From: Pseudomonas putida
Lineage (GTDB): Bacteria; Pseudomonadota; Gammaproteobacteria; Pseudomonadales; Pseudomonadaceae
NCBI GenBank assembly: GCA_029953615.1
Contig: CP124529.1
Coordinates: 1-64,000 of the forward strand
Length of the DNA: 64,000 nucleotides
Reading direction: 5' to 3'
Below, piece after piece: positions 29,635 through 53,714 of this stretch. The position numbers were made by a program, and so were the translations under genes. Within the stretch, counting starts at the first letter, position 1. Each line of letters starts with the position of its first letter. Below the pieces are notes generated by a model, which worked only from the letters and a program-made list of their open reading frames with translations, ran no database searches and was not told the origin of the DNA.

Positions 29635-31362
29635 TCAGCCCAGCAACTGGCTCAACACTGCGCGAAGCTTCCCCGGTTTGACGGGTTTGTTCAGCAATGG
29701 CGCGCCGAGTTTGTTCAAGGCGCGTCGGCACTGATCGCTGCGATCAGCAGTGATGATCACCGCGGGGATGGCGACACCGAAATGTTCGCGCAAATGCCTG
29801 ACCACCTCGCAGCCGACCACGCCGTGGTCCAGGTGAAAATCCGCCAGGATCAATTCCGGTGCCCGCCCCTGCAGCGCCAGTAAGGCTCCGGCCTGGTCGG
29901 TCGCGGTAACCACTTCGCAACCCCACTGCCCGAGCAATGCGCCCATGCTCTCGAGGATGCTCACTTCGTTGTCCACTACCAGCAGGCGGCGGCCCGGCAA
30001 CGGGTTGCCGGCGCCCGCCTGCGGCGAAGCCTGGTGAACAGGCTCCGGCATGGCTTCGCCGATCGGCACCTCGATGCTGAACATCGAGCCACGCCCTGGC
30101 CACGAGCGCACCTCGACCCGGTAGCCGAGAATCTTGGCAATCCGTTCGACGATGGCCAGCCCCAGGCCCACGCCCTTGCGGTCGGCGGCGCGGCCAACAT
30201 CCAGTTGATTGAACTCGAGGAAAATGGCCTGCAGCCGATCTGCCGCAATGCCTCGCCCGGTATCCCACACCTCCAGGCGCAAGTGATCGCCGCGGCGCCT
30301 GGCCCCCAGCAGGATCCTGCCCTCGTCGGTATAACGGCAGGCGTTGCTGAGAAAGTTGCGCAGGATACGCGTCATCAGCCGCAGGTCGGTACTGATGGCG
30401 TAGTCGCCAATGCGCGCGCGCAGCTTCAGGCCTGCCGCATCGGCCACCGTGCAGAACTCCGAGACCAGTGGCCCGAACAGTTCGTCGAGGCGGTACAGCG
30501 CCACGTCCGGCTTGACCGCCGCCTGGTCGAGCCGGGAAATGTCCAGCAGGTCGGTCAGCAGGTCTTCGGCGCCCTCCAGGGCCTGGTGGGTACGCTCCAC
30601 CAGCACTTTTTCCGCTTCTGGCAGTGGCCGTTCGCGCAAGGTCGATATCAGCAGCCGCGCGGCGTTCAGCGGTTGCAACAGGTCGTGGCTGGCGGCAGCA
30701 AGGTACTTGTCCTTGCTGCGGTTGGCGGTTTGCGCGGCGTCGCGGGCATCGCGCAGGGCGCGGGCGATCTGCTTGCGCTCGGCGATCTGCTGTTGCAGGT
30801 TGCGGTTGGCCTCCAGCAGTTCATCGGTGCGGGCGGCCACCCGTTGCTCGAGTTCGTCATTCAGTTGCTGCAGGCGCTGCTGGGCCAGCTTGCGTTCGGT
30901 GATGTCGGCGACAAAGCCTTCCACCAGCCCTTCCTGGCCTGGCTTGAGCAACAGGTTCATCAGCACATCGAGGTGGCTACCGTCCTTGCGCCGCAGGCGG
31001 GTTTCGTAGCCGTGCAGGCTGCGTTCACGGGCGAGGGTGGCGGTAATGCCGTGCAGCTCTTCGGCCCCGCCGACAAACAGGTCGGCGGCAAGGTCCGTCA
31101 GCGGAAACAGCAACGCTTGCGGATTGTCGTAACCGAGCATGCGGGCCAACGCCGGGTTGGCGGCGCGCATGCCGTCTTGCAGGCTGGCCTGGAAAATCCC
31201 GTGCACGGCATTTTCGAACAGCCATTTGTAGCGGTTGCGTTCGGCCTCCAGCTCGTCCAGACGCGCCGCCAGCTCCGGGTAATGGCTCTTGCGCGCCGAG
31301 TGGTCGCCCAGCCCCAGCAGCCCGGCCAGCGCCCGCTGCTGCTCGTCAGAGGGCCTCGCCAT
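29635..31362 (-). CDS. PAS hybrid sensor histidine kinase of the ped cluster (ErcS-like)
   Basis: 575 residues from ATG 31362. Order: coiled coil, PAS domain (about 45-165, ending FVADITERK), second coiled coil, HisKA with the phospho-His in LAAASHDLLQPLNAARL, HATPase_c (DTGRGIAADRLQAIF, GVGLGLAIVERIAK) and a C-terminal receiver (LILADFHLDHGVVGCEV carries the phospho-Asp, LLNKPVKPGKLRA the Lys). No TM helix, so cytoplasmic. It overlaps the ercA stop by 17 bases, making it the last gene of pqqA2-pqqD2-ercA-kinase. It corresponds to ErcS of P. aeruginosa in gene order. Confidence 0.85.
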   Translation of the reverse strand: MARPSDEQQRALAGLLGLGDHSARKSHYPELAARLDELEAERNRYKWLFENAVHGIFQASLQDGMRAANPALARMLGYDNPQALLFPLTDLAADLFVGGAEELHGITATLARERSLHGYETRLRRKDGSHLDVLMNLLLKPGQEGLVEGFVADITERKLAQQRLQQLNDELEQRVAARTDELLEANRNLQQQIAERKQIARALRDARDAAQTANRSKDKYLAAASHDLLQPLNAARLLISTLRERPLPEAEKVLVERTHQALEGAEDLLTDLLDISRLDQAAVKPDVALYRLDELFGPLVSEFCTVADAAGLKLRARIGDYAISTDLRLMTRILRNFLSNACRYTDEGRILLGARRRGDHLRLEVWDTGRGIAADRLQAIFLEFNQLDVGRAADRKGVGLGLAIVERIAKILGYRVEVRSWPGRGSMFSIEVPIGEAMPEPVHQASPQAGAGNPLPGRRLLVVDNEVSILESMGALLGQWGCEVVTATDQAGALLALQGRAPELILADFHLDHGVVGCEVVRHLREHFGVAIPAVIITADRSDQCRRALNKLGAPLLNKPVKPGKLRAVLSQLLG

Positions 31363-32509
31363 AGACGACCTCGACATCACGCTGGCTCGACGCACGCGGG
31401 TTGGTGAGGATGCACGGGTCATCCATGGCGTGTTGCGACAGGAACGGGATATCGGCCGTGCGCACCCCATGCAGGCCCAGGGTTTCATGGAAACCGATGG
31501 CATGCTTCAGCGCGATCAGGTGCTCCACCAGGCGCGCGCAGATCTGCCGGTGGTTGAGGCCGCGGCAGTCGATGCCCAGCACTTCGGCGATCACCTTGAA
31601 ACGCTCCGGCGCCGAGCTGTAGTTGAACGCCACCACGTGCTCCACCAGCACCGCATTGCACAAGCCGTGCGGCAGGTCGAGGAACCCGCCCAGGCTGTGC
31701 GACATGGCGTGGACAGCCCCCAGGATCGCGTTGGAAAACGCCAGCCCCGCCTGCATGCTGCCCAGCATGATCTTCTCGCGCAGGGCGATATCGCTGGGGT
31801 TGGCGATCATTTCCACCAGGTTGCCGTTGATCAGGCGCATGGCCTCCAGCGCATGGGGGTCGGTCAACGGGCCGTGGCCAGTGGAAACGAAGGCTTCGAT
31901 GGCATGCACCAGCGCATCGATGCCGGTGCAGGCCGACAGGAACGGGTCCATGCTCAGGGTGGTTTGCGGATCGATCAGCGACACGTCCGGCACCACCGCC
32001 TTGCTGACGATGGAGAACTTCATGCGCTCCTGCTGGTTGGAAATGATCACGAACTGCGACACGTCCGCCGAGGTGCCGGCCGTGGTCGGGATCAGGATCA
32101 GCGGCGGGCTGGGCACGCGGATCATGTCCACGCCTTCGAATTCGAGGATGCTGCGCCCGTGGGCGACCACGATGCCGATGGCCTTGCCGCAATCCATCGG
32201 GCTGCCGCCGCCAACCGCGACAATCACATCACAATGGTTTTGCCGATAGATCTCGGCACCGAGCATCACCTCTTCGACCCGTGGGTTGGGTGATACGGCG
32301 CTGTACAGGCAGTAGTCGATGCCCTGGGCCTGCAGGCTGGCCTCCACGTCCGCCACCCAACCGGCGGCAATCACACCGGGGTCGCTGACCACCAGCACCT
32401 TGCGCGCACCGAAGGTCTTGGCGTAATTGGCAACGTTATGCCGGCAGCCGGCACCAAAGATGATCTCGGGCGAAACGAACTTGCGAAGCGGGCTGAAACT
32501 CTGGCTCAT
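31346..32509 (-). CDS. ercA: Iron-containing alcohol dehydrogenase ErcA
   Basis: 387 residues from ATG 32509 (the frame extends far upstream but without coding sense). Group III Fe-ADH: VAVGGGSPMDCGKAIGIV (NAD), LILIPTTAGTSADVSQF, and metal ligands in CTGIDALVHAIEAFVS, NAILGAVHAMSHSLGG and LPHGLCNAVLVEHVV. ErcA is needed for regulation of PQQ ethanol oxidation and is thought to help produce or modify a signal rather than to drive catabolism. Lies 89 bases after pqqD2 and overlaps the kinase. Confidence 0.88.
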   Translation of the reverse strand: MSQSFSPLRKFVSPEIIFGAGCRHNVANYAKTFGARKVLVVSDPGVIAAGWVADVEASLQAQGIDYCLYSAVSPNPRVEEVMLGAEIYRQNHCDVIVAVGGGSPMDCGKAIGIVVAHGRSILEFEGVDMIRVPSPPLILIPTTAGTSADVSQFVIISNQQERMKFSIVSKAVVPDVSLIDPQTTLSMDPFLSACTGIDALVHAIEAFVSTGHGPLTDPHALEAMRLINGNLVEMIANPSDIALREKIMLGSMQAGLAFSNAILGAVHAMSHSLGGFLDLPHGLCNAVLVEHVVAFNYSSAPERFKVIAEVLGIDCRGLNHRQICARLVEHLIALKHAIGFHETLGLHGVRTADIPFLSQHAMDDPCILTNPRASSQRDVEVVYGEAL

Positions 32510-32598: not shown

Positions 32599-32871
32599 TC
32601 ATTCGATCCAGTACTTGGCACGGGCCACCTCCAGGAACGCCAGAATGTCTTCGTCGAGCCCCGCTACACCGGGAAAGCGCTGTGCCAGGCGGTCGATGAC
32701 CGCCGCCACGCTGCGCTGACCGTCCAGCAACTCGAGCACCCAGCCGGCGCTGGCGTTGAGCTCGATGATGCCCTCGGGGTACAGCAGCACATGGCACGCC
32801 TGGTGCGGCTCCCAGCGCAAGCGAAAGCCTTTGCGCAAGGCCAGGGCTTGCTCACGATCGATCAGGTTCAC
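32599..32871 (-). CDS. pqqD2: PqqD-type peptide chaperone (second copy)
   Basis: 90 residues matching Pqq[40 protein letters not shown], and [12 protein letters not shown]. PqqD is the RiPP recognition element which holds PqqA and presents it to the radical-SAM enzyme PqqE. The main pqq operon is not in this window, so this is a stand-alone copy inside the ped cluster. It lies 51 bases downstream of a tiny pqqA-like gene (32923-32995), giving a substrate-chaperone pair. Confidence 0.9.
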
Positions 32872-32922
32872 AGGCGGGTGCGCAAGGAAGACCCGGCCAT
32901 CGCGACGATGGCCGGACAGGCA

Positions 32923-32995
32923 TCAACGATTGGCGAAGTACATCGTCACTTCGAAGCCGATGCGCAGGTCGGTAATAGGCGGGTTTAGTCCACAT
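32923..32995 (-). CDS. pqqA2: PqqA-like PQQ precursor peptide (single-base frameshift)
   Basis: Starts at ATG 32995 with a GAGGA ribosome-binding site seven bases upstream. The first frame reads MWTKPAY; one base later the other frame reads TDLRIGFEVTMYFANR and stops at 32923. Together these are a 23-residue PqqA, with the EVTMY segment whose Glu and Tyr are cross-linked to make PQQ. The extra base is the second T of TATT (32974/32975). It heads the operon with pqqD2, and an element shared with other ped promoters lies 73 bases upstream. The match to PqqA is close to exact, so a real gene with a consensus error is the best reading. Confidence 0.85.
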
Positions 32996-33057
32996 GGGGC
33001 AGTCCTCTTGTTGTGCCGGGCGATTCCGGTACAGGCATTAATGCACGAGGGGCGACG

Positions 33058-33079
33058 GGGCCGAATGCTACTTTGGGAC
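33058..33079. promoter_or_regulatory. ped promoter element upstream of pqqA2
   Basis: GCCGAATGCTACTTTGGGAC matches similar sequences before pedF/pedE (40178), between pedS2 and the 45248 gene (45170) and before the FIST gene (53694). Probably a binding site for a ped-cluster regulator; seen as a repeated sequence, function inferred. Confidence 0.5.
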
Positions 33080-33143: not shown

Positions 33144-33235
33144 GGCCTCTTCGCGGGCTCGCCCGCTCCCACAGGGACTGCACAAGTTTCAAGACCAGTG
33201 CAATACCTGTGGGAGCGGGCGAGCCCGCGAAGGCC
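33144..33235. repeat. REPIN (TGTGGGAGCGGGC type)
   Basis: Arms 33144-33175 and 33206-33235 (GGCCTCTTCGCGGGC.. / ..GCCCGCGAAGGCC) form an inverted pair between the pedI stop and the pqqA2 promoter. Confidence 0.88.
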
Positions 33236-33245
33236 GCGAAGAGGT

Positions 33246-34767
33246 TTAGAAGAAGCCCAGCGGGTTGATGTCGTAGCTCACCAGCAGGTTCTTGGTCTGC
33301 TGGTAGTGATCGAGCATCATCTTGTGCGTCTCGCGGCCTACCCCGGACTTCTTGTAGCCACCGAACGCCGCATGCGCCGGGTACAGGTGGTAGCAGTTGG
33401 TCCACACACGCCCGGCCTTGATCCCACGGCCCATGCGATACGCACGGTTGATGTCACGGGTCCACAACCCCGCGCCCAGGCCAAACTCGCTGTCGTTGGC
33501 GATCGCCAGCGCTTCGGCTTCGTCCTTGAAGGTGGTCACGCCGACCACCGGGCCGAAGATTTCCTCCTGGAACACGCGCATCTTGTTGTTGCCCTTGAGC
33601 AGGGTCGGCTGGATGTAGTAACCGCTGGCCAGGTCGCCGTCGAGCCGCTCGGCACCGCCACCGGTGAGCAGCTGCGCGCCCTCCTCGCGGGCTATCTGCA
33701 GGTAGGAAAGGATCTTGTCATATTGCTGCTCCGAGGCCTGGGCGCCGACCATGGTCTCGGTGTCCAGCGGGTTGCCACGGGTAATTTTGGCGATCTTCTT
33801 CATCACCTCGGCCATGAACGGCTCGTAGATCGACTCCTGGATCAGCGCCCGCGATGGGCAGGTGCACACTTCACCCTGGTTGAAGAACGCCAGCACCAGG
33901 CCTTCGGCGGCCTTTTCGATGAACGCGGGCTCGGCCTGCATGATGTCTTCGAAGAAGATGTTCGGCGACTTGCCGCCCAGTTCGACGGTGGACGGGATGA
34001 TGTTCTCGGCCGCGCACTTCATGATGTGCGAGCCGACCGGGGTGGAGCCGGTGAAAGCGATCTTGGCGATGCGCTTGCTGGTGGCCAAGGCCTCGCCGGC
34101 TTCACGGCCAAAGCCCTGGACGATGTTCAGCACGCCTGCCGGCAGCAGGTCGGCGATCAGCTCGGCGAAAATGGTGATCGACAGTGGCGTCTGTTCCGCT
34201 GGCTTGAGTACCACGCAGTTGCCGGCGGCCAGTGCCGGGGCGAGTTTCCAGGCGGCCATCAGCAGCGGGAAGTTCCATGGGATGATCTGCCCGACCACGC
34301 CCAGCGGCTCGTGGATATGGTAGGCCACGGTGCCTTCGTTGATCTCGGCGGCGCCGCCTTCCTGGGCCCGGATGCAGCCGGCGAAGTAGCGGAAGTGGTC
34401 CGCCGCCAGCGGCACGTCTGCGTTGAGGGTTTCGCGCACGGCCTTGCCGTTGTCCCAGCTTTCGGTAACCGCCAGTTACTTCAAGATTCTGCTCGATGCG
34501 GTCGGCGATTTTCAGCAGCGCCAGCGCACGGTCCTGCACCGAGGTCTTGCCCCAGGCCTCGGCAGCGGCATGGGCGGCGTCCAGGGCCCGCTCGATGTCC
34601 TCGGCACCAGAGCGCGGGAACTCGGCAATCGGCTGGCCGTTGACCGGCGAGCTGTTGGTGAAGTACTGGCCGCCCAGCGGCGGCACGAATTCGCCGTTGA
34701 TGAAATTGCCGTAGCGTGGCTTGAAGGACACGATGGCGCCTGGGGTTCCGGGTTGTGCGTAGATCAT
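33246..34767 (-). CDS. pedI: Aldehyde dehydrogenase PedI (single-base frameshift)
   Basis: NAD-dependent ALDH that oxidises the aldehydes made by PedE/PedH. Motifs: [20 protein letters not shown], the NAD-binding [24 protein letters not shown], and the catalytic region [17 protein letters not shown] with Cys; it ends YDINPLGFF. The first 100 residues lie in a different frame: EQNLEV then [11 protein letters not shown]. One extra base at 34476/34477 (GTAACTGG instead of GTACTGG) explains the shift and gives a 506-residue enzyme of normal length. It follows pedH on the same strand with a 162-base gap that carries a ped promoter half-site. Confidence 0.88.
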
Positions 34768-34929: not shown

Positions 34930-36715
34930 TTAGCGACTGGCGCTTGCCGTTTGCAGTTGCTTGGGCAGCTTGAAGGTCCAGAGCATGCCGCCCTGGTTGA
35001 AGTCCTTGACCCGCTTGGCCACTTCGCCGCCCCACAGCGGCACCGCGCCGCCCCAGCCGGAAACCACCGAAACGTACTGTTCGCCGTCCATTTCCCAGGT
35101 TACTGGCGAGCCGAGCACGCCGGAGCCGGTCTGGAACTCCCAGACCTTGTCGCCAGTCTTGGCGTTGAACGCCTGCAGGAAGCCTTCCGGCGTGCCGGTG
35201 AACACCAGGTTGCCCTTGGTAGTCAGTACCCCGCCCCACAGCGGCGCATAGTTCTTGTGGCGCCAGACTTCCTTGCCGCTGACCGGGTCGATGGCGCGCA
35301 ACACGCCGATGTAGTCTTCATTGAGCGGCTTGATGGTGAAGCCGGCGCCGAGGAATGCCGCGCCCTTCTTGTAGGCGATGCCTTCGTTCCAGATGTCCAT
35401 GCCCCACTCGTTGGAGGGCACGTAGAACAGGCCAGTGTCCTTGTTGTATGCCATCGGCATCCAGTTCTTGGCACCGAGGAACGCCGGGGCCACGAACACC
35501 GAGCTGCCCTTGGCCTCGCTACCCGGTGCACCCGGCCGGCTGGCCTCGTTGTAGATCGGCCGACCATCCTTGTCCAGGCCGGTGGCCCAGGTGATCTTGT
35601 CGACGAAGGGGAAGCCGCGGATAAACTTGCCGTTGGTGCGGTCCAGCACGTAGAAGAAGCCGTTGCGGTCAGCAGTGGCAGCGGCCTTGACTTCCTTGCC
35701 GCCGTCCTTGTAGTTGAACGAAATCAGCTCGTTGACGCCGTCGAAGTCCCAACCGTCATGCGGCGTGCTCTGGAAGTGCCACTTGATGGTGCCATCGTCG
35801 GGGTTCAGGGCCAGGCGCGACGAGGAATACAGGTTGTCGCCCGGACGCAGGTGCGAGTTCCACGGTGCCGGGTTGCCGGTGCCAAACAGGATCAGGTTGG
35901 TTTCCGGGTCGTAGTAACCACCCAGCCAGGGCGCCGCTCCGCCGGTCTTCCACAGGTCGCCGGGCCAGGTCTTGCCCGCCTCGCCGCCGGAAATGCCATT
36001 TTCGATCGCCTTGCCGTCCTTGTACACGTAGCCCATGTGCCCTTCCACGGTCGGGCGCATCCACAGCAGTTCGCCGTTTTCCGGGTTGTAGGCCTGGATC
36101 TTGCCCACCACGCCAAACTCGCCACCGGCAACACCGGTGATCAGCTTGCCGTTGACGATCATCGGCGCGGCACTGATGGAGTAGCCTTCCTTGTGGTCGG
36201 CCACTTTCTTGCTCCAGACCACCTTGCCGGTGTCCTTGTTCAGCGCCACCAGCTTGGCATCGAGGGTGCCGAAGAACACCAGGTTGCCGTAGAGCGCCAC
36301 ACCGCGGTTGATCACGTCGCAGCACGGGCGGATGTCATCGGGCAGGCGCGCATCGTATTGCCACAGCTTCTTGCCGGTACGCGCGTCCACGGCGAACACC
36401 CGCGAGTAGGAGCCGGTCAGGTACATCACCCCGTCCTTGACCAGCGGCTGGGCCTGCTGGCCGCGCTGTTTCTCGCACCCCGAAGGAAAACGCCCAGACC
36501 GGCCGCAGGTCCTTGACGTTGTCGGTATTGAGCAGGTTCAGCGGGCTATAGCGCTGGCCCTGCACGCCCAGGCCATTGGTCACGATCTGCTGCGGGTTCT
36601 TCGGGTCCTGGAGAATTTCTTCGTTGCTGACAGCGGCGTGGGCTGCACCGGCAAGCAGCATGGCGCTGAGCACCAGGCTCAAGGCGAACACGGGACGACG
36701 TGGGGATCGGGTCAT
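34930..36715 (-). CDS. pedH: Lanthanide-dependent PQQ alcohol dehydrogenase PedH (single-base frameshift)
   Basis: Periplasmic quinoprotein with a signal peptide ([22 protein letters not shown]) and an eight-bladed propeller. Adjacent cysteines in DIRPCCDV form the disulfide next to PQQ. The catalytic WDFDG at residues 322-326 has Asp323 plus the extra Asp325 that marks Ln3+-using enzymes, in contrast to WDFSG in pedE of this cluster. The start ATG is at 36715; the frame shifts near 36474-36478 (GGGGTGCGAG), where one extra base is present; corrected length is 594 residues. It oxidises primary alcohols and aldehydes and is expected to be induced by lanthanides through PedS2/PedR2. Confidence 0.92.
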
Positions 36716-36726
36716 GACGGCTACCT

Positions 36727-36743
36727 TTGGTTTTTTTGTTGTA
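36727..36743 (-). promoter_or_regulatory. Putative Crc/Hfq site in the pedH leader
   Basis: Minus strand ACAACAAAAAAACCAAA, about 12-28 bases before the pedH start, resembles the A-rich CA motifs bound by Hfq/Crc. Inference from sequence only. Confidence 0.4.
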
Positions 36744-40177: not shown

Positions 40178-40221
40178 GCCGAATGCTGCTTTGGTGGCCG
40201 CGCCTTACTCCCTTGGTAGTA
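40178..40221. promoter_or_regulatory. Shared pedF/pedE promoter with two ped elements
   Basis: Between the divergent pedF and pedE genes. It contains GGCCGAATGCTGCTTTGGTG (40178-40197) and, next to it, CTTACTCCCTTGGTAGTA (40204-40221), a dyad with TACTCCC and GGTAGTA half-sites. Both elements recur elsewhere in the cluster. This is the best candidate operator for the PedR regulators. Confidence 0.55.
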
Positions 40222-40355: not shown

Positions 40356-42250
40356 ATGACAACAAGAACGCTACCCGCCCCTTCCCCTCTGGCCCTCAGC
40401 GTGCGGGCCCTGCTGCTGGCCGGTAGCCTGGCCCTCGGCAGCATGGCCACTGCGGCCACCGCCCCGGCACCTGCCAGCAAGAACGTGACCTGGGAAGACA
40501 TCGCCAACGACCACCTGACCACCCAGGACGTGCTGCAATACGGCATGGGTACCAACGCCCAGCGCTGGAGCCCGCTGGCCCAGGTCAACGACCAGAACGT
40601 GTTCAAGCTGACCCCGGCGTGGTCCTACTCGTTTGGGGACGAGAAACAGCGCGGCCAGGAATCCCAGGCCATCGTCAGCGACGGCGTGGTCTACGTCACC
40701 GGCTCCTATTCGCGGGTGTTCGCCCTCGATGCCAAGACCGGCAAGCGCCTGTGGACCTACAACCACCGGCTGCCGGACAACATTCGCCCCTGCTGCGATG
40801 TGGTCAACCGCGGCGCGGCGATCTACGGTGACAAGATCTACTTCGGCACCCTGGACGCGCGGGTCATCGCCCTCGACAAGCGCACCGGCAAAGTGGTGTG
40901 GAACAAGAAGTTCGGTGACCACGCCGCCGGCTACACCATGACCGGCGCGCCAGTGCTGATCAAGGACAAGACCAGCGGCAAGGTACTGCTGATCCACGGC
41001 AGCTCCGGCGATGAATTCGGCGTGGTCGGCCAGCTGTTCGCCCGCGACCCGGACACCGGCGAAGAGGTGTGGATGCGGCCCTTCGTCGAAGGCCACATGG
41101 GCCGCCTGAACGGCAAGGACAGCACCCCGACCGGTGACGTCAAGGCACCGTCCTGGCCGGACGACCCCACCACCGAAACCGGCAAGGTCGAAGCCTGGAG
41201 CCACGGCGGCGGTGCGCCTTGGCAAAGCGCCAGCTTCGACCCCGAGAGCAACACCATCATTGTCGGCGCTGGCAACCCCGGCCCCTGGAACACCTGGGCG
41301 CGCACCTCGAAGGACGGCAACCCGCAGGACTTCGACAGCCTGTACACCTCTGGGCAGGTCGGCGTCGACCCGAGCACCGGTGAGGTGAAATGGTTCTACC
41401 AGCACACGCCCAACGACGCCTGGGATTTCTCCGGCAACAACGAGCTGGTGCTGTTCGACTACAAGGGCAAGGACGGCAAAAAGTGGTCAAGGCCACCGGC
41501 CACGCCGACCGCAACGGTTTCTTCTATGTGGTGGACCGCAGCAACGGCAAGCTGCAGAACGCCTTCCCCTTCGTCGACAACATCACCTGGGCCAGCCACA
41601 TCGACCTCAAGACCGGTCGCCCGGTGGAGAACCCCGGTCAACGCCCGCCCAAGCCGCTGCCAGGTGAAACCAAGGGCAAACCGGTGGAAGTCTCGCCACC
41701 GTTCCTGGGCGGCAAAAACTGGAACCCCATGGCCTACAGCCAGGACACCGGCCTGTTCTACATCCCCGGCAACCAGTGGAAGGAGGAATACTGGACCGAG
41801 GAAGTGAACTACAAGAAGGGCTCGGCCTACCTGGGCATGGGCTTCCGCATCAAGCGCATGTACGACGACCACGTCGGCACCTTGCGCGCCATGGACCCGA
41901 CCACCGGCAAACTGGTGTGGGAGCACAAGGAACACCTGCCGCTGTGGGCCGGCGTGCTGGCGACCAAGGGCAACCTGGTGTTCACCGGCACCGGCGACGG
42001 CTTCTTCAAGGCCTTCGACGCCAAAACGGGCAAGGAGCTGTGGAAGTTCCAGACCGGCAGCGGCATCGTCTCGCCGCCGATCACCTGGGAACAGGACGGC
42101 GAGCAGTACATCGGCGTGACCGTGGGCTACGGCGGCGCAGTACCGCTGTGGGGCGGCGACATGGCCGAGCTGACCAAGCCGGTGGCCCAGGGCGGTTCGT
42201 TCTGGGTATTCAAGATCCCCAGCTGGGACAACAAGACTGCACAGCGTTGA
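40356..42250 (+). CDS. pedE: Calcium-dependent PQQ alcohol dehydrogenase PedE (single-base frameshift)
   Basis: Periplasmic quinoprotein ethanol dehydrogenase with a 34-residue signal peptide. PQQ-site features: [11 protein letters not shown], the vicinal disulfide Cys146-Cys147 in NIRPCCDV, and catalytic Asp357 in WDFSG, where Ser359 replaces the extra Asp of the Ln enzyme, so Ca2+ is expected. The frame shifts in a run of five A at 41478-41482; adding one A links DYKGKDGK to [16 protein letters not shown] and gives 631 residues, the normal size. The start sequence ATGACAACAAGAACG is CA-rich, a possible Crc site. A hairpin at 42320 ends the unit. Confidence 0.92.
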
Positions 42251-50608: not shown

Positions 50609-52547
50609 CTATGACACACTGCTGCCCAGCAAATGGCTCATCGCCGCCTTCAGCCTCATCGGCCGCACCGGCTTGTGCATCAAGGTGTGCCCCAGCTCGC
50701 GGATCTGTTGCTTGAGCTCGTTGCTGTAGTTGGCGGTGATCATCATCGCCGGCAAGGGCTGGGCGCGGCGGGCATTGATCCGCGCCACGGCATCGACACC
50801 ATTGCAGTCGTTGTCCAGGTGGTAGTCGGCGATCAGCAGGTCGGCCTCGGCATGGTAGTTGTCCACCTGGCGCGCCAGGTCCTCCTCCGACAGCGCGGTG
50901 ACTACCTGGCAACCCCACCCCTCCAGCAGGGTGCGCATGCCGGCGCAAATCGCCGCATCGTTATCCAGCACCCATACCCGCGCCCCGCGTAGCCGTTCGA
51001 GCATCGGCTCGCTGATCGCCTGGCTCGGCTGGGCCTTGGGCGCGGTGGCACTCAACGGCACCTCCACCGCGAATACCGAGCCTTTGCCAAGCCACGAGCG
51101 CACCCGAATCCGGTGGCCGAGGATGCCTGCGATCTTTTCCACGATCGCCAGGCCCAGGCCCAACCCACGATCCTGGTCCGGGCGCTGCACATCGCCGCGC
51201 CTGAACTCCTGGAACATTTCTTCGAGGTGCTCCTCGGCAATACCGATTCCGCTGTCCCATACTTCGATCCGCAGACCGCCACGCAGGCGTCGGCAACCCA
51301 GCACCACGCGGCCGCTGGGGGTGTAGCGAATGGCATTGCTGAGCAGGTTGCGCAGGATCCGCGCCAGCAGCTGGATGTCACTGCGCACCACGGCAGAGCA
51401 ACCCACGAAATGCAGCTCCAGCCCTTCGCTGCGCGCCACCTGGGCGTATTCGGCAGCGAGGTTGTCCATCAGTTCGTGCACGGGCGAACGGGGCGACATC
51501 GGCCTTGATCACACCGGCATCAAGCTTGGAAATGTCCACCAGCGTACCTAGCAGGTTCTCCACATCCGCCAGGGAGTTGCTCACATTACGCACCAGGTGA
51601 GCACTGTTCTGCGGCTCGCGGTGCTCGAGCAAGGCACTGGTGAACAGCCGCGCCGCATTCAGCGGTTGCAGCAGGTCATGGCTGACGGCGGCAAGAAACT
51701 TGGTTTTCGACAGGTTGGCCTGCTCGGCCTCGCGCTTGGCCTCGCGCAGGCGCGATTCCACCCGGCTGCGCTCCTCGATTTCGCGCAGCAACTGCTCGTT
51801 GAGGCTGGTCAGCTCGGCGGTGCGCTCGCGTACCCGCTGCTCCAGGTGCTGATAGGCCTGGTGCAACGCCTGTGCGGTATTACGCCGTTCGGTGATGTCG
51901 CGGATCAACACGAAGATGCCCACCACTTCACCGTTGGCCAGGCGGTTCGGCACGTAGGAGCGCAGCATGTAACGTTCCTGGCCCTTGATATTGGTTTCGG
52001 CGAACTCGAAGGTTACGCTCTCCCCTGCCAGCGCCCGCGCCACGTAGGCCTCCAGGCGCTGGTAATGCTGCTCGCTGTGGGCCTCGCGCAGGCTCTGGCC
52101 CAGCATCACGCCGCGGGGCCAGCAGTACCATTCTTCATAGACCTTGTTGGTAAATTCGTAGACCAGGTCGGCATTCAGGTAGGCGATCAGCGCCGGCACA
52201 TGGTCGGTGATCAGGCGAATCTGGTGCTGGTGGGCGGTCTCGGCCCGCTGCCGCGCCTCGCTGAGCAGGTGGTTGACGGCCTTGAGCTCGGCCATGGCCT
52301 GGTTCAGCGCTTCGGTACGCTCGCGCACCTGCTCGGCCAGCACCACCGAATGCTGGAACGCGGCATAAGGGTCGTTGCCCCGCGTCACGCCAGACTCGAT
52401 ACGCTCGATCAGCGCGCCGTTGATACGCTGCAGCTTGTGGTTATGGTGCTGCAGCCGGGCGACCTCGGCCTGCAGTTCAGCGACCGACAGGAGGCCGGTT
52501 GCGGGCAATGGCGACCCCGGTAAAGGTCTGGTTGATGTGCATGCCAT
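50609..52547 (-). CDS. pedS1: PAS hybrid sensor kinase PedS1 (ErcS'/NahK-like; single-base frameshift)
   Basis: Cytoplasmic kinase of 645 residues once corrected. Order: coiled coil (AELQAEVARLQHHNHKLQRI), PAS domain (about 110-230, FVLIRDITERRN), long coiled coil, HisKA with phospho-His in LAAVSHDLLQPLNAARL, HATPase (LLSNAIRYTPSGRVVLG, DSGIGIAEEHLEEMF, GLGLAIVEKIA), receiver (LLIADYHLDNDCNGVDA). The frame shifts at about 51485 (TTCGCCCGTG, one extra base): VIKADVAPF joins PVHELMDNL. ATG 52547 overlaps the FIST gene by 71 bases; a later start is possible. With the neighbouring FIST gene it matches the NosP-NahK pair of P. aeruginosa. Confidence 0.85.
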
Positions 52548-53640
52548 TGAACTGTTCTCCGTAGGTGTTGAAACCGATCACCCGCTGCTCGCGCAGAAAC
52601 GCGCCGATCGGCTCCAGGCCGTGCCGGGCTTCCAGCTCCAGCCGCCGCAGGAAGCAATCGCAGCCGATGGTCAGCAGCAGCGGGCCGAGGCGCTGCTGCA
52701 AGCCGTCGAACAACTGGTGCAGGTTGGGCAACAGCGGGCCTGGAGTCATGGCGGTAAGCACGATGCCGTTTTCCACCGCGCAGTAGAAACTCAGGCTCAG
52801 GTCCGGGTGCACTTGCTGGATCGCCCGCACGTAATACTGGTCATGGATGCGCACAGCCAGTGGATGGGCGGCGAAGACCCGATGATCGAGCTCGGCCACC
52901 GGCACGCCGATGTGCCTGGCGTATTCCTCGGCAGCAGGCTCGGCATTCAGCTCGATGACCCGGCGCTGGGCACTGTCGGCGCTGGTGACCACCAGCTTTT
53001 CCTGGCGCGGCAGGATGTGGTGGGTGGTGAACACTTCGAAGTCGAGCCAGGTATTGACCAGCACCACCACCGCCGCGCCGTGGCGGAACGCGCCGCCGTA
53101 ATACACGTGGGTGCGGGTCAGGTAGTTGTCATCGCCGGCCGAACCGCCGAAATGCGGGATGTCGCCCAGGGCGGCACTGAGGGCGGCGAGCACCATCTCC
53201 TCGCGGCTGGACAAGCCATCGAGCAGGGTCAGGGCAAAGCTGTGGCCCTTGATCGGCGCCAGGGTATTGCTGCGGCAGGTGCCGACCAGGCGCTCGACCA
53301 TCTGCTGGGCGTCGATCAGGCTGAAGCGCTCCATTTCATCGATCAGCTCGGTGGCGATGGAAAAGTGCCGATGATCGAACCCGACTGCCGTTATGCAATT
53401 ACGGCCATAGCCCTGCGGGGTGATTTCGCCGGCGCTGGTGCAGCCGACCAGGCGGATACCACCAAAACCCTGCTCCAGGGCCTCGCCCAGGGCCTGCAGG
53501 TCGTATTCGGCAGAGCAGAAGAACAGCACGAAGCCCAGGTGCGGGTGCAGCAACTGCGCCGCCAGCTCCTGGGCTGCCTGCCGGGCGTCGGTGGCCTGGG
53601 ACATGGCGCTGACCACCCCGTCGTTGTGAGCCTGTTGCAT
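52477..53640 (-). CDS. FIST-domain sensor protein, NosP-like
   Basis: 387 residues with an N-terminal FIST domain (about 35-220: GFVLFFCSAEYDLQALGEAL, RLVGCTSAGEITPQGYG, FGGSAGDDNYLTRTHVYYGG) and a FIST_C domain to the end (GCDCFLRRLELEA, IGFNTYGEQFNGMHINQTFT). In P. aeruginosa the orthologue NosP binds heme, senses nitric oxide and inhibits the adjacent kinase NahK. The same gene pair and order is present here, overlapping the kinase gene. The link from NO sensing to alcohol oxidation or biofilm control is an inference. A ped-type element lies 54 bases upstream. Confidence 0.85.
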   Translation of the reverse strand: MQQAHNDGVVSAMSQATDARQAAQELAAQLLHPHLGFVLFFCSAEYDLQALGEALEQGFGGIRLVGCTSAGEITPQGYGRNCITAVGFDHRHFSIATELIDEMERFSLIDAQQMVERLVGTCRSNTLAPIKGHSFALTLLDGLSSREEMVLAALSAALGDIPHFGGSAGDDNYLTRTHVYYGGAFRHGAAVVVLVNTWLDFEVFTTHHILPRQEKLVVTSADSAQRRVIELNAEPAAEEYARHIGVPVAELDHRVFAAHPLAVRIHDQYYVRAIQQVHPDLSLSFYCAVENGIVLTAMTPGPLLPNLHQLFDGLQQRLGPLLLTIGCDCFLRRLELEARHGLEPIGAFLREQRVIGFNTYGEQFNGMHINQTFTGVAIARNRPPVGR

Positions 53641-53693: not shown

Positions 53694-53714
53694 GGACGAA
53701 TGCTACTTGGGTAG
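53694..53714. promoter_or_regulatory. ped promoter element upstream of the FIST gene
   Basis: GACGAATGCTACTTGGGTAG shares CGAATGCTACTT with the element before pqqA2 (33058) and, less exactly, with those at 40178 and 45170. CTACTTGGGTAG is itself a short dyad. Confidence 0.45.

Follow-up and report, generated by a model that had tools for sequence, protein, structure and literature searches.

RESULTS

A second pqqA gene in the ped cluster

The DNA analyzed here, positions 1 to 64,000 of contig CP124529.1 of Pseudomonas putida (GenBank assembly accession number GCA_029953615.1), is referred to as the window. On its minus strand lies a small gene, pqqA2 (32995..32923), whose 73 nt consist of 23 codons, a stop codon, and a single additional base within codon 7. 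The gene starts with ATG TGG ACT AAA CCC GCC, carries AAGAGGA 7 nt upstream of its ATG (Shine-Dalgarno sequence AGAGGA, 33003..33008, minus strand), and is separated by 51 nt from the GTG start (32871) of pqqD2 (32599..32871, minus strand), which encodes a second PqqD chaperone (TIGR03859, 116.3 bits at a cut-off of 46; NF002535, 131 bits). Downstream, on the same strand, the locus is anchored by ercA (yiaY; 31346..32506; NF041833 ErcA, 604 bits at a cut-off of 550), a regulatory gene resembling iron-dependent alcohol dehydrogenases (ADHs), and upstream by the aldehyde dehydrogenase gene exaC (pedI), the 3' part of which is in frame (33246..34439, minus strand). This part matches profile positions 107 to 503 of 503 of NF050026 with 765 bits; the cut-off of 900 for the whole protein is not reached, as the rest of the gene is out of frame. 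The 5' part is found in another frame beyond a private 1-nt insertion at 34476. The preliminary description of the locus had the coordinates, the strand, the ribosome-binding site, and the 51-nt spacing of a pqqA-like gene right.

The second part of the encoded peptide, TDLRIGFEVTMYFANR, is identical to residues 8 to 23 of the main PqqA of the same genome and includes EVTMY, the E-x3-Y positions of which we take to be the Glu and the Tyr of PqqA that are cross-linked by PqqE. A Glu/Tyr cross-link in PqqA is stated in the relevant passage of PMC12997753. The Pfam profile PqqA (PF08042) scores 25.4 bits on pqqA2 over profile positions 5 to 19, and since the cut-off is 21.1, the gene is not a chance match. 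In the genome of 5.76 Mb, the profile exceeds its cut-off at two places, namely the main copy (43.4 bits, 2780620) and pqqA2; a supposed third pqqA at 2749561 was rejected (13.3 bits, one internal stop). Four relatives (G368, G072, G103, and G057) reach 44.2 bits over positions 1 to 19. As sequenced, the ATG frame of the window runs into an unrelated open reading frame of 47 residues, whereas an uninterrupted short reading frame with a ribosome-binding site is present in 15/15 close relatives and in all 136 loci of the sample introduced below. Profile match and relatives together indicate that pqqA2 is a genuine second pqqA, encoding the peptide from which PQQ is made.

The interruption in codon 7 is private to the window

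The preliminary description had proposed a gene split by one extra base and had made its case dependent on an intact frame in close relatives. In all 15 relatives aligned, the frame is open, and the 73 nt of the window are one base longer than each of them, the difference lying in codon 7. The proposed peptide length holds with 23 codons, but the Tyr assigned to the break is uncertain, as residue 7 is Phe in 10 of the 15 relatives, including the closest ones (L067 to L070 and L087), and Tyr in 5.

Alignments with relatives revealed further private insertions in the same assembly. They affect one quinoprotein ADH gene at 36477, the other at 41478 (two bases by the alignment used), a PAS hybrid kinase gene at 51481, whose open frame of 399 codons compares with 654 to 659 codons in 6/6 relatives, and the main pqqB of the window genome (L066) with 226 codons versus 303 in 11/11 relatives. 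With artifacts at the ends of a 9.9-kb alignment left aside (at 29640 and 39500, affecting the window, L067, and L068), the window shows three private one-base coding insertions; of the four relatives, L069 lacks one base at 36731, and no such event is present in the remaining three. Both rpoB and rpoC have open frames in this genome. A codon-usage frame scan was not used as a count, since it also flagged several normal, short overlaps between genes and missed known breaks, and a tblastn count of split genes is limited by spurious antisense reading frames, so that alignments were used instead. Because several further private insertions are present in the same assembly, the extra base in pqqA2 is likely a sequencing or assembly error.

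pqqA2 and pqqD2 as parts of a reduced operon

The survey of ErcA is a sample in which 194 of 398 genomes matched, our own included. Gene order upstream of ercA was determined for 139 Pseudomonas genomes (19 picked genomes and 120 of the best-scoring ErcA matches listed), while some loci at contig ends, the last listed matches, and lower-scoring genomes were excluded. Seven named loci were added, of which the duplicates L086, L088, and L090 were dropped and L087, L089, L096, and L102 kept, resulting in 143 loci. Among the matches listed, 136 loci contain pqqA upstream of ercA and 7 contain neither exaC nor pqq genes there, one of the latter (L236) being an uninformative stretch of 410 bases that ends with its contig. 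The stretch read upstream of ercA is free of exaC and pqq genes in L234, L255, L257, L262, L265, and L271, and four of these genomes (G048, G339, G283, and G261) have a single pqqA match.

The 136 nonredundant loci can be divided into those with pqqA alone (n = 62), pqqABCDE (36), pqqAD (16), pqqABCE (12), pqqAB (6), and pqqACDE (4), the last class including L089 of P. capeferrum WCS358, although its truncated pqqC is a mere stub between pqqA and pqqD; pqqB is absent from three other loci. In the 12 pqqABCE loci (L172, L173, L186, L190, L195, L204, L213 to L215, L240, L243, and L247), pqqD is cleanly absent between pqqC and pqqE, which are spaced by -15 to 24 nt. The loci with pqqA and pqqB but without pqqC, pqqD, and pqqE are L170, L201, L245, L246, L258, and L276. 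In L282 (G255) and L284 (G229), pqqA to pqqE are followed by ercA some 2 kb later, and pqqC occurs once per genome; this layout fits that of P. aeruginosa as far as it can be read from the locus tags PA1984 to PA1992 in tables of PMC12997753. A broken pqqA would appear as a locus with exaC and without pqqA, and the window was the only such case: with the window excluded, pqqA2 is intact in 136/136 loci in which pqq genes precede ercA among the matches listed.

On a tree of ExaC (125 sequences with more than 900 nt of exaC, the window being entered by hand as pqqAD), the state of pqqA alone requires seven changes, of which branches with strong support demand at least four, and the presence of pqqB, pqqC, and pqqE requires five changes each and that of pqqD 15; the tree gives no rooted direction, and loss is deduced from the intermediates, in which genes are truncated or cleanly deleted. 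The window shares flanking genes and gene order with the complete exaC-pqqABCDE-ercA operons, to which the intermediates lead over. PqqD2 is 63 to 73% identical to PqqD of exaC-linked operons (L091 to L120) and 51 to 58% identical to that of pqqF-linked ones (L123 to L151). Since the gradation of classes, the gene order, and the closer relationship of PqqD2 to exaC-linked PqqD agree, pqqA2-pqqD2 is identified as the remainder of a second pqqABCDE operon between exaC (pedI) and ercA (yiaY). A recent duplication of the main pqqA and pqqD was rejected on the basis of gene order and PqqD2 identity.

A pqqC gene is located elsewhere in all 62 genomes with pqqA alone (one copy in 60 and two copies in 2 of them) and, as one copy each, in the 13 pqqAD genomes checked and in the genome of the window (all read by hand). 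Because pqqC lies elsewhere, PqqA2 could be matured only in trans in the genomes with pqqA alone, and maturation in trans appears possible in these and in the pqqAD genomes checked.

Purifying selection on pqqA2 and relaxed constraint on pqqD2

Selection was assessed by dN/dS, calculated as simple pairwise Nei-Gojobori sums, which in the case of pqqA rest on as few as 23 codons. In the class with pqqA alone, dN/dS of pqqA2 is 0.050 (pS, 0.41; pN, 0.029) for 61 genes of 69 nt, 47 of them distinct, one longer gene being left out. Residues vary solely at positions 3, 4, 6, 7, and 22, and the cross-linking residues Glu15 and Tyr19 are unchanged in 61/61 genes. The ratio amounts to 0.035 in the pqqAD class (16 genes), 0.036 in the pqqABCDE class, and 0 in the pqqAB class, and is higher (0.127) in the pqqABCE class, which comprises 12 genes of low divergence. 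In the pqqAD class of the P. putida type, it is 0.041 for pqqA2 (11 genes), 0.033 for exaC (12 genes), and 0.449 for pqqD2 (12 genes), the sequences of which are free of stops despite this high value; the main pqqD reaches 0.074 (8 of the 12 genomes, i.e., those with genes of one length). These ratios indicate that pqqA2 is under strong purifying selection and is about as firmly held as exaC, and that the constraint on pqqD2 is relaxed. The proposal that PqqA and PqqD form a functional pair at this locus is therefore not supported, all the more as pqqA2 occurs without any pqqD in 80 of the 136 sampled loci (62 with pqqA alone, 12 pqqABCE, and 6 pqqAB). The picture of an "orphan" pqqD2 is corrected accordingly, the conserved gene being the neighboring pqqA.

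Conserved signals around pqqA2

A conserved box, AAAGTAGCATTCG (33062..33074, minus strand), is located upstream of pqqA2 and is probably the site of a regulator. It is exact in the window and in 125 of the 136 sampled loci, has at most two mismatches in 135 of them, and is mostly situated 64 to 69 nt before the ATG. With one mismatch the box recurs as AAAGCAGCATTCG (40180..40192, minus strand) between pedF and pedE, about 23 nt ahead of an open reading frame for a pedF-like cytochrome c, which bears out the earlier suggestion of a promoter element common to other ped units. A second box near pedF (at most two mismatches) is present in 9 of the 17 loci of relatives searched; it was not found in L071, L075, and L080, which cover that place, and some other loci fall short of it. 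The loose pattern on its own is weak, because 4 of 100 shuffled sequences had as many as the five matches with at most two mismatches counted in the window (2.0 expected); position and conservation carry the claim. Upstream of the main pqqA, no close match was seen in 12 genomes (4 to 5 mismatches at best), and the promoter carries the related sequence TACCCAAGTAGTA or a near form of it. The idea that the box is the binding site of AgmR (ErbR/PedR1) is a guess.

A further copy with one mismatch, CAAGTAGCATTCG (53697..53709, minus strand), precedes the open reading frame of a FIST-domain gene (52477 to 53640) by about 56 nt. Next after this gene follows the hybrid kinase gene with PAS, HisKA, HATPase, and receiver domains (50609 to 52547, minus strand) that is split by the frame break. 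The two genes possibly encode paired sensors linked to the alcohol regulon. In addition, an inverted, G+C-rich repeat resembling REP elements was noticed by eye between exaC and the pqqA2 promoter (33150 to 33240).

Between box and gene, alignments of the upstream regions show a conserved leader block, TGCATTAATG..TACCGGAATCGCCCGG (33016..33045, minus strand), with one match in the window versus 0.08 expected; the fold of the leader is no better than that of shuffled sequences (z, 0.20). The ribosome-binding site is likewise conserved, as AGAGGA is present no more than 25 nt from the ATG in 134 of the 136 sampled loci. The leader (33016 to 33045 and 33003 to 33008, minus strand) contains two GGA motifs, one within a small CCGG repeat and the other in the ribosome-binding site. 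Rsm proteins bind GGA in stem-loops (PMC7937890). The RNA of pqqD-II, which belongs to the same unit, is a reported Rsm target in KT2440, and an Rsm site on the pqqA2 leader is possible.

Directly after the pqqA2 stop codon, an RNA hairpin is predicted (32892..32916, minus strand; -21.6 kcal/mol), which folds moderately better than shuffled sequences (z, -1.72). The first 60 nt past the stop fold below -12 kcal/mol in 136/136 relatives and the window, a threshold that is loose for G+C-rich DNA (median z of the classes, -1.15 to -2.61; window, -1.2). All nine pairs of the hairpin are kept in 15/15 aligned sequences; its covariation is confined to a single pair varying between UA, CG, and UG, which is reached by 13 of 500 shuffles.

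DISCUSSION

pqqA2 as a probable extra source of the PQQ precursor

One PqqA is consumed per PQQ, whereas the enzymes of the pathway are reused. This difference would explain the retention of the precursor gene and the loss of the duplicate enzyme genes. The strong conservation of pqqA2 is consistent with an extra precursor supply for the alcohol dehydrogenases, and we propose, with a probability of roughly two-thirds, that pqqA2 is an additional, alcohol-regulon-controlled source of the consumed precursor that is matured by the enzymes of the main operon. Alcohols would be sensed through ErcA/ErcS and AgmR, and the pqqA2 promoter would yield extra PqqA. The peptide would be cross-linked, cut, and oxidized in trans by the main PqqD/PqqE, PqqF(G), PqqB, and PqqC, and the PQQ supply would climb along with the apo-dehydrogenases PedE and PedH, which need PQQ. 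The hairpin probably protects or ends a short mRNA, so that the peptide may be made in excess over PqqD2 or ErcA.

Published data touch on this locus through its neighbor pqqD-II of strain KT2440. In evolved strains with mutations in yiaY (ercA), the pqqD-II transcript dropped together with pedH and aldB-II according to qRT-PCR (PMC7427536), pqqD-II RNA is among the 75 RNAs bound by all three Rsm proteins (PMC7937890), and light lanthanides lower PP_2681 along with further pqq genes (PMC11520305); the passages on pqqD-II or PP_2681 in these three sources do not report pqqA2. Overexpression of pqqAB in Acetobacter raised PQQ by 29% and that of the whole operon eightfold (passages of PMC7936290), and because the full operon had a far larger effect, the precursor is not the sole limit on PQQ. 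Since the main pqqA promoter has the related sequence TACCCAAGTAGTA, pqqA2 may not be alone in responding to alcohols. A passage of PMC12997753 on P. putida, which does not specify whether the 23-codon pqqA itself was hit, suggests that pqqA2 may be unable to substitute for the main pqqA in the conditions applied there. The dN/dS of 0.127 in the pqqABCE class and the broken copy of the window were also counted against the proposed function.

The break could mean that the copy of the window is a true recent pseudogene, perhaps in the course of a decay of PQQ-dependent alcohol oxidation. It sits in a single-contig assembly, which also has breaks in the main pqqB, in exaC, and in the two quinoprotein ADH genes, but each of the six private breaks aligned is an insertion (one base long, or two in one of the ADH genes), as is the pattern of assembly errors, one of them hits the hybrid kinase gene at 51481, and rpoB and rpoC are open, which makes a pseudogene unlikely. 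Still less probable is that pqqA2 is merely the leftover of a redundant second operon in which deletions are incomplete, without any present role. The locus plainly is a reduced operon, and the constraint on the partner pqqD2 is relaxed; a passive remnant is nevertheless hard to reconcile with intact frames in all 136 loci, with a dN/dS of about 0.05 at a pS of 0.41 in the class with pqqA alone, with at least seven changes of state and no observed case of exaC next to ercA with pqqA lost, and with the retention of box, ribosome-binding site, and hairpin alongside the gene.

The same signals could also be the actual object of selection, in that promoter, leader, and hairpin control pqqD2 or ercAS and the peptide is incidental. 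Hairpin and leader elements are retained in every class, the ercA match starts 109 to 196 nt past the last PqqA codon in the class with pqqA alone, and in KT2440 each of the three Rsm proteins targets the RNA of pqqD-II (Table 3 of PMC7937890). We nonetheless regard a pure leader function as improbable, as it leaves unexplained why PqqA residues, Glu15 and Tyr19 included, are invariant while synonymous sites vary. A signaling role in addition to precursor supply, in which PqqA2 or its PqqE-modified form is read by ErcA/ErcS and PQQ-making capacity is gauged before the quinoprotein dehydrogenases are switched on, would explain why the peptide gene stays beside ercA whatever else is lost, but appears highly speculative and very improbable.

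Comparison with known systems

The reduction of the exaC-linked operon represents a natural experiment on a ribosomally made cofactor: the second operon was redundant, its enzyme genes were lost along several lines, and the peptide gene was kept in each such locus of the sample, which suggests that selection in the alcohol cluster holds the dosage of the precursor and not that of the enzymes. A description of pqqA alone in the ped cluster, or of this pattern of retention, was not found in the parts of the open-licence literature covered, which is weak evidence of absence. Secondary pqq operons have been reported for several Pseudomonas genomes, where they are often incomplete and may sit in the ped cluster (PMC12997753); in the passages on incomplete operons, pqqD-II alone is named for KT2440, without a second pqqA and without specifying the gene that is retained, and the accessible part of the KT2440 ped gene table has no entry between pedI and pqqD-II. 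The preliminary description considered the small gene easily missed, which is not always the case, since in P. putida LWPZF a second pqqA is likewise annotated ("pqqA2"), far from pqqFABCDEG (PMC9346032); unlike in the present analysis, its location in a ped cluster, its conservation, and its function are not discussed in the passages concerned.

Additional pqqA genes, some of them stand-alone and with condition-dependent responses, are known from methylotrophs, e.g., Methylovorus MP688 (Ge et al. 2015, cited in PMC6520949 and PMC9851590). As far as these sources describe them, they belong to other lineages with other users of the cofactor and apparently do not lie in an alcohol dehydrogenase cluster left by operon reduction. 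The closest counterpart is the exaC-pqqABCDE-(PA1990)-ercA operon of P. aeruginosa (PA1984 to PA1991; PMC12997753), which occupies the same place between the aldehyde dehydrogenase gene and ercA in the same order and in strain PAO1 lies between pedI and yiaY. PqqA2 and PqqD2 of the window are the equivalents of PqqA and PqqD of this operon, which is complete in P. aeruginosa, whereas the window keeps pqqA and pqqD, with the main pqqFABCDE locus elsewhere in the genome.
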